Origin: Candidatus Aerophobota bacterium
Lineage (GTDB): Bacteria; Aerophobota; Aerophobia; Aerophobales; AE-B3A
NCBI GenBank assembly: GCA_030672445.1
Contig: DAOVGK010000053.1
Location: 1 to 6,491, forward strand
Reading direction: 5' to 3'
DNA length: 6,491 bases
Of the stretch, positions 974 to 6,491 are shown piece by piece (position 1 is the first letter of the stretch; each line of letters opens with the position of its first letter). The position numbers were made by a program, and so were the translations under genes. Under the pieces are notes generated by a model that saw only the letters and a program-made list of their open reading frames with translations, made no database searches and was not told the origin of the DNA.

Positions 974-1465
974 TCAGCTTTGAACCGCTTTTTTCTCTTC
1001 AGGCCAGCTATCCAGGGATGTGCGAGTTTTAAGATAGATAAAAAGTGCTCCCGCCAGAACAAGAGGAATAGTGCTCAACTGCAAAGCTAGAATTAGCCCT
1101 AAATGGTCGGCCAGCAGCCCTATTATCCCCGGAGCAGCCGCACCCACCAGAGCCGAGGCAAGAAGTAGTTGCCAGTAAAAGCTGCTTTTACTACAAAGTA
1201 TCAGAGCCAGAGAAGCAATTAAAAATCCTCCACTTAAGATGATTCTTCGACCAAAACGGTCACCTAAATAGCCGGTAATAAAGGAACCCAGGCCGGTGAC
1301 GATGGTAAAAGAGGTTACCAGAAGGCCTGCCTGAATATAACTTAGCCCGAATTCCTCTTTAACGAGAGGTAGAAGAACGGGAAAGATAAACCAGTACATA
1401 TCACTTAAGGCATGGGCGAAGGATGTTGACCTCAGGATATTTAGGGGCCGATTTTTTCTGCTCAT
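974..1465 (-). CDS. Shortened MFS transporter lacking the central helices (probable pseudogene/deletion derivative)
   Basis: This encodes about 163 residues, against ~400 for a 12-helix major facilitator. The N-terminal part looks normal: TM1 with HALSDMYWFIFPVLLP, TM2 GLLVTSFTIVTGLGSF, the cytoplasmic motif A GYLGDRFGRR, TM3 and TM4 (SFYWQLLLASALVG). Directly after this comes AAAPGIIGLLADHLG and one further hydrophobic stretch ending IYLKTR. In this transporter type that resembles the TM10/11 loop, TM11 and TM12 at the C-terminus. The simplest reading is an in-frame loss of TM5-TM10 (roughly 220 aa) between two similar Val-Gly-Ala stretches, near base 1130-1147. The resemblance is to fosmidomycin-resistance-like or sugar/acid MFS proteins, but no substrate can be assigned. 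I chose ATG 1465, which has GGA 7 nt upstream; an in-frame TTG at 1477 would add four residues. A MITE-like repeat starts 30 nt upstream of the ATG and may have displaced the promoter. A functional transporter is unlikely, though the frame is intact and expression is possible. Confidence 0.72.
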   Translation of the reverse strand: MSRKNRPLNILRSTSFAHALSDMYWFIFPVLLPLVKEEFGLSYIQAGLLVTSFTIVTGLGSFITGYLGDRFGRRIILSGGFLIASLALILCSKSSFYWQLLLASALVGAAAPGIIGLLADHLGLILALQLSTIPLVLAGALFIYLKTRTSLDSWPEEKKAVQS

Positions 1466-1494
1466 AGACGATTCCAAATTCTCTCAAGGATGAG

Positions 1495-1586
1495 AAAATG
1501 GGGACGTGATTATTTTTTGGAAAGGAAAAATAATTGTAGGAAGAAAGAACTAGAAAAAAAGAAAAAAATAATCACGTCCCCATTTT
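1495..1586 (+). mobile_element. MITE-like element, copy 1 (92 bp, 24-bp terminal inverted repeats)
   Basis: The left end (1495-1518) and right end (1563-1586) are perfect 24-bp inverted repeats carrying the core TGGGGACGTGATTA flanked by A4 and T6. The ~44-bp centre is almost purely purine on the + strand (GGAAAGGAAAA...GAACTAGAAA). A second copy in opposite orientation lies at 2621-2713. The element has no coding capacity and could fold into a long hairpin as RNA or single-stranded DNA. That fits a non-autonomous element (MITE) or a REP-like palindrome mobilised by a transposase elsewhere. No convincing target-site duplication is visible. It sits 30 nt upstream of the MFS ATG on that gene's promoter side. 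Confidence 0.85.
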
Positions 1587-1592
1587 TCGTAC

Positions 1593-1623
1593 AAAAAAGT
1601 GGGCAAGCTGATTCCTTGTCCAC
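1593..1623 (-). terminator. Rho-independent terminator on the minus strand with no adjacent upstream gene
   Basis: Read on the minus strand, GTGGACAAG (1623-1615) pairs with CTTGCCCAC (1607-1599) as a 9-bp stem with one G-U pair and a 7-nt loop. Six T residues follow (1598-1593). The orientation stops minus-strand transcripts arriving from the right. The nearest minus-strand gene on that side is mtrB, more than 1.1 kb away and separated by the oppositely oriented DUF624 gene. On the + strand there is no T-tract. Confidence 0.65.
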
Positions 1624-1738
1624 TGATAGAGCAATAACGGATACTCTAAACTTATCCTATCATCATCGACCATCCTTGTCAAAAGGTGCGGAAAGGAAAC
1701 AACGCTGGTAATAATTGACTACTTTTCTTCATATGCTC

Positions 1739-1779
1739 TGGTATGATGATCTTGCAGTAGTTAGATTTTCGGGTATAAT
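1739..1779 (+). promoter_or_regulatory. Candidate promoter(s) for the DUF624 gene
   Basis: There are two possible -10 boxes. An extended -10, TGGTATGAT (1739-1747), would start transcription near 1754 and leave a ~45-nt leader. A perfect TATAAT (1774-1779) with a weak TTGCAG (1752-1757) 16 nt upstream would start near 1786, inside the SD site, so it fits less well. A TTGACT at 1715 is 21 nt from the first -10 and is too far to be a good -35. The rest of 1624-1738 shows nothing I can support. Confidence 0.4.
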
Positions 1780-1798
1780 GTTAAAGAGGAAAAGACAA

Positions 1799-2599
1799 TT
1801 GTTAAAAGAAAATAACCAAGTTGGTAAACTGTCCATAGGACGGGCCATAAAGTTTACTTTAGGGGATGCCTATCATAATGTGGGTAAGCTTATCCTTAGT
1901 AACTTATTTTGGACAGCTACCTTTGTTCCCTTTCTATTAGTTGGTCTCGAGATCAGAAAAAATCTCTCCCCCTTGCTTCTTCTTTTGCTGGCCGGATGCT
2001 TTCTTTTAACTTCTCCTGCCCTGGCGGGGATATTTGTTATTTCCCGAAAAATTGCCATAAAGGAGCACGAAATAGAGATGAGAGATTTCTTTACTGGGAT
2101 AAAAGATCACTGGAAGAAAAGCCTTATCCTGTCTCTTATTTGCGTGATAATCCCTTTAGTAGCTGGATCTTCCTTAATGTTCTATGGACAATTGGCTAGA
2201 ACCAGCTCGTTGAGTGTGATTCTTTGGATAATCAACATTTGGATATTGATCTTTTTCTTCCTGGCTCAAGTTTATTTCTTTCCCCTTATGATAGGGCAGA
2301 AAATGGGAATAATTCAAATCTTAAGGACTTCTTTTTTGCTAGCTTTGAATAATGTTGGGTTTACCTTTGTAGTTCTTCTCTTTGAAATAGCTATTCTTTT
2401 GCTCTGTTCTGTTACGGGAGTTATCTTTCTGGCCGGAGTGAGTATGATTGCTCTTCTTCAAAGCAATGCCTTCATTGAAGTAGCCAAAAGATATACCGGG
2501 GAGGAGATAAGAAAAGAGGTGAAAAGAGAAGAAGAGGGTCAAAAGAAAACCTTAAGAGATGTTATTCGAAACCTCTTTTTCCCCTGGAAATATGATTGA
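1799..2599 (+). CDS. DUF624/YesL-like integral membrane protein
   Basis: This is a 266-residue membrane protein. The core pattern is that of the DUF624 (YesL) family: an N-terminal amphipathic stretch with a DAYHNVGKLILSN motif (~23-35), then TM1 ~33-50 and TM2 ~57-82. A loop GIFVISRKIA...EIEMRDFFTG follows, with HWKKS (~78-108). TM3 is ~108-128, TM4 ~139-162 and the last hydrophobic segment(s) ~186-220. A highly charged cytoplasmic tail (EEIRKEVKREEEGQKK) ends the protein. The biochemical role of the family is unknown. Members often neighbour CUT1 sugar ABC importers, as yesL does with yesOPQ in B. subtilis, which matches the importer further right here. I chose TTG 1799 because AAGAGGA lies 8 nt before it and the family's conserved start follows. 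The longer reading from TTG 1715 adds 28 residues that run through the candidate promoter and lack a ribosome site. The gene is flanked by inverted MITE-like copies. Confidence 0.8.
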   Translation: MLKENNQVGKLSIGRAIKFTLGDAYHNVGKLILSNLFWTATFVPFLLVGLEIRKNLSPLLLLLLAGCFLLTSPALAGIFVISRKIAIKEHEIEMRDFFTGIKDHWKKSLILSLICVIIPLVAGSSLMFYGQLARTSSLSVILWIINIWILIFFFLAQVYFFPLMIGQKMGIIQILRTSFLLALNNVGFTFVVLLFEIAILLLCSVTGVIFLAGVSMIALLQSNAFIEVAKRYTGEEIRKEVKREEEGQKKTLRDVIRNLFFPWKYD

Positions 2600-2620
2600 G
2601 AGTGCCTGAGGGTCTATTAC

Positions 2621-2713
2621 AGAAAATGGGGACGTGATTATTTTTTCTTCTTTCTAGTTCTCTCTTCCTGCAATTATTTTCCTTTCCAAAAAATAATCAC
2701 GTCCCCATTTTCT
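2621..2713 (-). mobile_element. MITE-like element, copy 2 (inverted relative to copy 1)
   Basis: The ends 2623-2646 and 2688-2711 are identical to those of the copy at 1495-1586. Here pairing extends two further bases (AG...CT) to 26 bp, giving 93 bp in total. The purine-rich centre is on the minus strand. Compared with copy 1 the centre differs by a few substitutions and a one-base indel, while all four inverted-repeat arms agree over 24 bp. It lies 21 bp after the DUF624 stop and 26 bp after the mtrB stop, between two convergent genes. Its hairpin could therefore also act as a weak two-way terminator or 3' end stabiliser. Confidence 0.85.
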
Positions 2714-2739
2714 ATATCTCGTCTTTAGGAATTTAGAAA

Positions 2740-2964
2740 TTATTTACCAGATTGTACTTTTCCATACCGGGAAAAGACCTCTGCTTTACCTCTTATCTTA
2801 ATGGCAGATACATGTTCTGTAAACTGGCAGAACCAGACCTCACCTTCATCCAATTTCTCGGTATGATGAACTATGGTCTCTTTCCCTCGAGTCAAACCAA
2901 TAATAGTTACTCCATTTTCTAGCGCTTTCACTACAATAAAATCAGCTTGCACTCTCTCTTCCAT
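2740..2964 (-). CDS. mtrB: Tryptophan RNA-binding attenuation protein (TRAP)
   Basis: This 74-residue protein aligns without gaps to Bacillus TRAP from residue 8 on (ADFIVVKALENGV..IGLTRG...HHTEKLDEGE...QFTEH.SAIKIRG). TRAP forms an 11-subunit ring. With bound tryptophan it wraps RNA containing repeated GAG/UAG triplets, terminating or blocking translation of trp genes. The known tryptophan-contact residues are at identical positions: Thr25, Thr30, Gln47 and Thr49. The RNA-contact residues Lys37, Lys56 and Arg58 are also present, so both functions should be intact. Unusually, residue 44 is Trp and 46 is Cys; the Bacillus proteins as I recall them contain no tryptophan. No trp gene, anti-TRAP gene or convincing GAG/UAG repeat array is in the window, so the target lies elsewhere. 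ATG 2964 matches the Bacillus protein's length and has AAGAG 7 nt upstream plus an overlapping GGAG. A GTG four codons later is a less likely start. The gene stands alone with its own promoter. Confidence 0.95.
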   Translation of the reverse strand: MEERVQADFIVVKALENGVTIIGLTRGKETIVHHTEKLDEGEVWFCQFTEHVSAIKIRGKAEVFSRYGKVQSGK

Positions 2965-3012: not shown

Positions 3013-3050
3013 CCCCCGCTAAGGCTTGAGAAAAATTGAAAGTTCCGCAA

Positions 3051-3063
3051 GCTAAGATTTAGC
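3051..3063. repeat. Short palindrome upstream of the mtrB promoter
   Basis: GCTAA-GAT-TTAGC is a 13-bp palindrome with 5-bp arms. A further GCTAA lies at 3018, close to the -35 box, and CAAGC/GCTTG form a looser pair around the intervening 20 bases. It could be an operator or simply an A+T-rich coincidence. Confidence 0.3.
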
Positions 3064-3075
3064 AGGTATTCCGAA

Positions 3076-3113
3076 GGGAGTCGAAACAAAATTGACTCCC
3101 CTTTTCTTTTTTT
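3076..3113 (+). terminator. Rho-independent terminator on the + strand with no adjacent upstream gene
   Basis: GGGAGTC (3076-3082) pairs with GACTCCC (3094-3100) around an 11-nt loop. A T-rich tract (3102-3113, TTTTCTTTTTTT) follows. This stops + strand transcription, yet the closest + strand gene is DUF624, which ends at 2599, with the opposite-strand mtrB between. On the minus strand the stem is followed by TTCGGAATACC, so it is not a good terminator for the importer operon. The remaining bases 3114-3172 hold only two CATCGAAT copies (3127-3134 and 3144-3151) and a related CTCGAACG. Confidence 0.7.
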
Positions 3114-6220: not shown

Positions 6221-6327
6221 TGTTTAGCCTCCTTCAATGTCTTAGCTTTTTCTAATTTCCCAGCTGGACTGGCCTTTTTTAGTTTCTCACCTCCCTTCTG
6301 GCCTTATATTTCCAGCTCTCACCTTCT

Positions 6328-6491
6328 TCAGGTTATTCGGTAAATGGCAAAAAAGTTTGCCGGAAGTTGGAAAGAAAGCTCCCCTTTTATGGGTATTTTT
6401 AAAGTTTCTTGAGAGCAAACCTCAGGGACCAGATATTTTGCCTTTTTAAATTCTTCCTCAGAATCGAGTTTCACTGTTAAATTACGAGAGG
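6328..6491 (-). CDS. C-terminal end of an unidentified protein, first visible gene of the importer operon (5' end outside window)
   Basis: On the minus strand a frame is open from the right edge (first full codon at 6489) for 53 codons to TGA at 6330-6328. It reads SRNLTVKLDSEEEFKKAKYL, then a stretch ending GELSFQLPANFFAIYRIT. Alternating hydrophobic residues and the ending FFAIYRI look like the last strands of a C-terminal beta-sandwich domain, as found at the end of many glycoside hydrolases. That would fit a sugar-uptake locus, but the fragment is too short to name. The other two minus frames stop within 15 bases of the edge. A 107-nt gap (6221-6327) separates it from the binding-protein gene. 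The gap holds that gene's SD, two AAGGCCAG copies and no clear promoter or terminator, so co-transcription is likely. Confidence 0.6.
   Translation of the reverse strand, partial: SRNLTVKLDSEEEFKKAKYLVPEVCSQETLKIPIKGELSFQLPANFFAIYRIT

Follow-up and report, generated by a model that had tools for sequence, protein, structure and literature searches.

The two short palindromic elements which flank a DUF624 membrane-protein gene in the Candidatus Aerophobota DNA analysed here (6,491 nucleotides, hereafter the window) are probably copies of dispersed, non-autonomous miniature mobile elements, most likely moved by a transposase of the RAYT/TIRYT type. They are regarded as mobile because the repeat family is dispersed in the sister genome G001, the elements are absent from the orthologous sites, the copies are placed mostly outside genes, and the same end design is found at two transposase genes. 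Movement would most likely take place in the form of single-stranded DNA hairpins, the ends of which a RAYT/TIRYT-type HUH tyrosine transposase would recognise, cut and join in trans. The two copies probably reached the flanks of the DUF624 gene independently and not as a unit, and the pair most likely brackets this gene by chance of insertion.

Structure and surroundings of the two elements

The sequence-only reading had described a near-identical palindromic pair in opposite orientation on either side of the DUF624 gene, with four arms identical over 24 bp; alignment and folding bore out the former, and the comparison of the arms the latter. Each element is about 93 bp long (Table 1). Since the centres are asymmetric and opposite in orientation, and a perfect inverted match of 37 bp connects 1493-1529 with 2677-2713, the elements are inverted relative to each other. 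The centres had also been said to differ by substitutions and one indel: the three internal substitutions in the alignment agree with this, but there are three single-base indels. Folded as single-stranded DNA, each strand of each element formed one long hairpin with energies of -22.2 to -25.6 kcal/mol (z -8.7 to -10.6, four folds), and none of the 200 shuffles in any of the four folds was as good as the real hairpin. No match was obtained with Rfam in the window at gathering cut-offs, with element 1 as query in phage records, or with the exact arm in viral contigs.

Table 1. Coordinates of the elements, their arms, the junction and the neighbouring genes in the window
Feature	Position	Strand	Description
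Element 1	1495..1586	+	24-bp perfect inverted ends, 44-bp centre; between divergent MFS and DUF624
Element 1 left arm	1495..1518	+	24 bp
Element 1 right arm	1563..1586	-	24 bp; 100% inverted match to 1495-1518
Element 2	2621..2713	-	26-bp perfect inverted ends, 41-bp centre; between convergent DUF624 and mtrB
Element 2 left arm	2621..2646	+	26 bp
Element 2 right arm	2688..2713	-	26 bp; 100% inverted match to 2621-2646
Junction	2619..2715	.	G004 C77 18792 and 27053 joined through element 2
DUF624 membrane-protein gene	1715..2599	+	Listed TTG start; ATG at 1780
MFS transporter gene	974..1477	-	720-bp in-frame internal loss vs G001 and G004
mtrB, trp RNA-binding attenuation protein	2740..2964	-	trp operon not at this place in the window

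The MFS gene stands to the left of DUF624 and mtrB to its right, followed by ABC transporter genes for which a sugar substrate may be supposed. The DUF624 protein (Pfam match of 27 bits, cut-off 24.2) is 95% identical to its relative in G001 and 89% to that in G004, and mtrB reached 124 bits with NCBIfam as well as with Pfam. The 720-bp loss in the MFS gene sits at an 11-nt direct repeat, and the C-terminal end of this gene differs. Synteny with G001 and G004 starts only at about 1030-1040 of the window; positions 1-1030 hold a flavoprotein gene with relatives in G002, G015, G003, G014 and G008. About 1 kb of extra DNA is present in G004 between the MFS and DUF624 genes (L069 5790-6827), including a 316-aa ORF that matched proteasome assembly chaperone family models with scores below the cut-offs.

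Two further repeat-like stretches were recognised in the window. The one at 6244-6330, upstream of a solute-binding-protein gene, has short matches of 77-91% in six genomes of the phylum (G010, G004, G017, G002, G001, G016). The other, a sequence of about 80 bp at 3029-3113 with a hairpin and a T-run, lies where the synteny with G004 stops beyond mtrB and has one copy each in G016, G002, G006, G003 and G015 (74-87% identity). It is possibly the end of another mobile element; no transposase-like ORF was recognised by eye among the ORFs of the fetched flanks.

Dispersal of the repeat family in Aerophobota

Of the 84,980 species in the collection searched, a single genome contained the exact 22-nt arm, in four stretches: Candidatus Aerophobetes CSMAG_2676 (G001). 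The 18-nt core gave 41 matches in G001 with up to three mismatches (reversed control: 0), and with at most one mismatch it occurred, among the 17 phylum genomes, only in G001 (37) and G004 (3). A full-length copy on contig C78 of G001 is 94-97% identical to the window's elements. The repeats are dispersed and often paired in this sister genome, the window itself containing two copies; the MITE-like character that had been proposed for them is supported.

The ends share one design, AAAAWGGGGAC followed by an 8-nt family-specific part and a T-run, which makes up the 24-bp terminal inverted repeats. A single search pattern covering three related ends was applied to the 17 phylum genomes and matched in 10 of them, with no match of the controls in any of the 17. 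The counts were highest in G013 (53), G001 (38), G017 (34), G005 (22) and G003 (18), and lower in G006 (13), G004 (6), G002 (2), G011 (1) and G016 (1). The G013 matches were, among the matches listed, all of the end type of a transposase locus in that genome (L053, see below), and 11 fetched G013 loci contained 10 short inverted pairs. From the window, 21 stretches of G001, 35 of G003, G005 and G006 and 11 of G013, a sample which leaves out G017, G004, G002 and part of the three-family matches, 41 inverted pairs were drawn (55-169 bp from core start to core end), besides 43 solo arms. Six of the 41 elements lie mostly inside ORFs of at least 120 aa, where 30.6 were expected from the same loci.

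A perfect inverted repeat of 22-28 bp is present in 36 of these elements and is shortened by a mismatch in the other five. Despite this constant length many centres are unrelated across the set; BLAST clustered 6 of the 13 first-family centres, and two more are similar by eye. Both arms are identical in 34 of the 41 elements, against 21.8 expected when right arms were shuffled within families (0 of 20,000 shuffles as high), a count which excludes the solo arms and a shuffle which ignores relatedness among copies. The excess agrees with the earlier proposal that the arms are held alike by function or by conversion, one of the three families being non-significant: identical arms were counted in 11/13 (p 0.0003), 15/18 (p 0.00005) and 8/10 (p 0.2) elements of the respective families. 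Part of this concordance goes back to whole elements being related by descent. Two elements (L184 and L171) each carry in both of their own arms a variant that is absent elsewhere in the set, L182 and L195 have one variant in common, again in both arms, and L176, L178 and L196 have private variants in one arm only. The sections drawn on here from the REPIN study (PMC3116915) report compensatory changes on the two sides of the hairpin as common.

Because near-identical ends enclose unrelated centres in many elements and a few private variants occur in both arms of a single element, the 24-bp ends could themselves be the real unit around arbitrary DNA, with arms being copied onto each other in the hairpin, and with pairs forming around resident DNA and seeding deletions, such as the trp loss at element 2 described below. 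We consider this possibility unlikely.

Orthologous sites, the trp junction and alternative explanations

The DNA of window 1590-2619 is 95.5% identical to G001. At the site of element 1 the element is absent from G001, where window 1487|1590 corresponds to L068 6389|6424 and 34 bp of other sequence are found in its place; at the site of element 2 homology with both G001 and G004 ends at 2619, and the element does not follow DUF624 there. Since both elements are missing at the G001 sites, they were either inserted after the split from G001 or lost in that genome. No target-site duplication was seen at element 1, where 34 bp of the target differ from G001. Four more G001 sites compared with G004 showed neither a target-site duplication nor a clean empty site: three of them are too diverged from G004 for placing the joints, and the fourth is a solo arm with 123 bp in G001 vs 16 bp in G004. 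At an arm-cluster site of G001 the orthologous G004 copy is degenerate and reads TGGGGACAGTGATTATTCTT, with GGGGACAG at the GGGGWSAS position.

Gene order in G004 is MFS, the 316-aa ORF, DUF624, trpA-B-F-C-D-G-E, a trpB-like gene, mtrB and rpsI, and the two G004 positions that are joined in the window are separated there by 8,260 bp (about 8.3 kb) with trpA to trpE and the trpB-like gene. The same order from trpB to trpE, the trpB-like gene, mtrB and rpsI is kept in G002, whose fetched stretch stops before trpA and on whose copy the family name of the trpB-like gene was assigned. In G001 the genes after DUF624 run from trpA to an incomplete trpG, where the contig ends, and mtrB was not found in that genome. 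Homology between the window and G004 comes within 2 bases of element 2 on each side, and gene orientation is conserved across it, which points to a deletion-type joint, as would result if two copies recombined or if an element was inserted and DNA next to it deleted. We favour the deletion of the trp segment via element copies; element 2 would then be the crossover, or would have arrived with the deletion. It is also possible that it was inserted later into a pre-existing junction. Synteny with G004 stops as well beyond mtrB at 3017 and to the left of about 1030, and the region is rearranged in general.

A metagenome assembly mis-join between repeat copies would give the same appearance, with the joint exactly inside a repeat as it is here, and the trp deletion would then not be real, the nature of the elements being unaffected. 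However, the repeat is just 93 bp long, both sides are colinear with G004 in gene order, and the window differs from G004 away from the repeat too (at 1030, in the 720 bp of the MFS gene and at 3017); a mis-join is therefore rather doubtful, though its probability is appreciable. The element pair had also been thought to form a composite mobile unit with DUF624 as its cargo, or to permit recombination that inverts the DUF624 segment of about 1.03 kb. A single gene with inverted copies on both flanks fits the former, but DUF624 has a single match in each of 9 of the 17 phylum genomes, it stands by the same divergent MFS gene at the element-free loci of G001 and G004 (with the 316-aa ORF between them in G004), and the block shared with these genomes is 1030-2619 and not 1495-2713, which makes a composite unit barely credible. 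An invertible switch is permitted by the orientation of the elements and by their 37 bp of perfect inverted identity; yet DUF624 keeps in the window the very orientation that it has in these element-free relatives, a flipped copy was not encountered, and such flipping is very improbable. Neither of these two suggestions of the sequence-only reading was thus supported.

Another explanation would be that the elements are not transposons and were retained as terminators of transcription in both directions or as hairpins for RNA processing. The strength of the hairpins is in accord with it, as is the position of element 2, whose two convergent neighbours have their stops 21 and 26 nt away. Against this, element 1 is situated between divergent genes, and the 26 of the 41 elements with assignable neighbours comprise 6 convergent, 17 codirectional and 3 divergent cases; copies with differing centres suggest mobility; and a terminator scan called neither element, a weak argument as the scan is limited to loops of 3-8 nt. 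Retention for this function alone is improbable, and a secondary role as terminator or RNA signal is possible for elements which we hold to be mobile.

Transposases with similar ends and comparison with known systems

Among the 17 phylum genomes the Y1_Tnp domain had 20 matches in 7, and inverted ends with GGGGAC flank two of the 20, L047 in G017 (26 bp, AAAGAAAAGGGGACAGGCTACTTTTT) and L053 in G013 (21 bp, AAAAAGGGGACAGATTTATTT). Their transposase genes are open frames of 220 or 230 aa enclosed by the ends, and with the NCBIfam model REP_Tyr_transpos (REP-associated tyrosine transposase) they scored 83.5 bits (L047) and 79.2 bits (L053, just under the cut-off of 80). In G017 the L047 end was matched 34 times, two of these being the ends of the gene itself, and 7 short inverted pairs can be made out from the positions. 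None of the 17 phylum genomes yielded a transposase gene with the window's ends on its flanks; the sister G001, a draft MAG of 1.1 Mb, had no Y1_Tnp match, nor had the arm-rich G003, G005 and G006. The link to REP-associated tyrosine transposases that had been put forward is consequently sustained by ends of the same design around intact genes in two genomes of the phylum, and not by the end sequence of the window itself. A derivation of the element centres from transposase-bearing copies was rejected, since the comparison, which covered the 40 of 41 centres of at least 20 nt, gave end-sequence matches and short chance matches only.

Other ends were observed at further Y1_Tnp matches. Inverted ends with GGGGTC accompany Y1_Tnp genes or remnants at L043 (15 bp), L048 (20 bp) and L051 (33 bp, one mismatch), and L052 has a 19-bp inverted pair without GGGG; these four add to the end classes of the phylum. 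The match at L049 has AGGGTC ends of 12 bp. Ends of the TGGTAGCCGCA type, which contain GTAG, flank L055 (11 bp) and L050 (26 bp, not perfectly matched), possibly a GTAG-type REP in Aerophobota. The remaining Y1_Tnp matches had no inverted pair, or had pairs of 10-13 bp that were not counted.

The MITEs of DDE transposons have short perfect terminal inverted repeats and no gene. Elements 1 and 2 are likewise short, have perfect inverted ends and carry no gene, but no target-site duplication was seen here and the end design is that of a tyrosine-transposase element. REPINs of RAYTs, in the parts of Bertels and Rainey 2011 (PMC3116915) considered here, resemble the elements in their conserved inverted ends, less conserved centre, single-stranded DNA hairpin and extragenic placement; unlike REPINs, the arms form no small hairpins themselves and have no GTAG end. 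A GTAG REP doublet was rejected accordingly, the arms lacking GTAG and pairing only with each other. The window arm read inwards contains CGTC, as do the CGTC-tagged REPs in the relevant portion of PMC3733652, although the stems given there are of 8-9 bp with CGTC unpaired, whereas here the stem is of 24-26 bp and CGTC lies within it.

Di Nocera et al. 2013 (PMC3733652) described TIRYT genes whose ends carry GGGGWSAS, together with dispersed dimers of the TIRs, the text drawn on here giving this motif for some TIRs and not for all; the same consensus stands in the corresponding part of a later survey (PMC6006769). Compared with the TIRtron/TIRYT dimers as presented in these parts of PMC3733652, the Aerophobota repeats too are dispersed inverted dimers with long ends and a GGGGAC core, and related end families flank a RAYT-like gene in G013 and G017. 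The L047 and L053 ends (GGGGACAG) fit GGGGWSAS at 8 of 8 positions and the window arm (GGGGACGT) at 6 of 8, having GT instead of AS after GGGGAC. Aerophobota is not among the phyla named in the sections of PMC3733652 referred to.

A little-studied class of transposase-linked repeats is hereby extended to Aerophobota, and the three sister end families, which differ in the 8-nt part, provide a natural test of end recognition. One copy of the element is tied to an entire biosynthetic operon having been lost or displaced while its regulator mtrB stayed in place; this copy, at the trp junction, is the feature that most deserves testing. The elements appear to be a known kind in a new host, and among the known systems they are most like TIRtron dimers.
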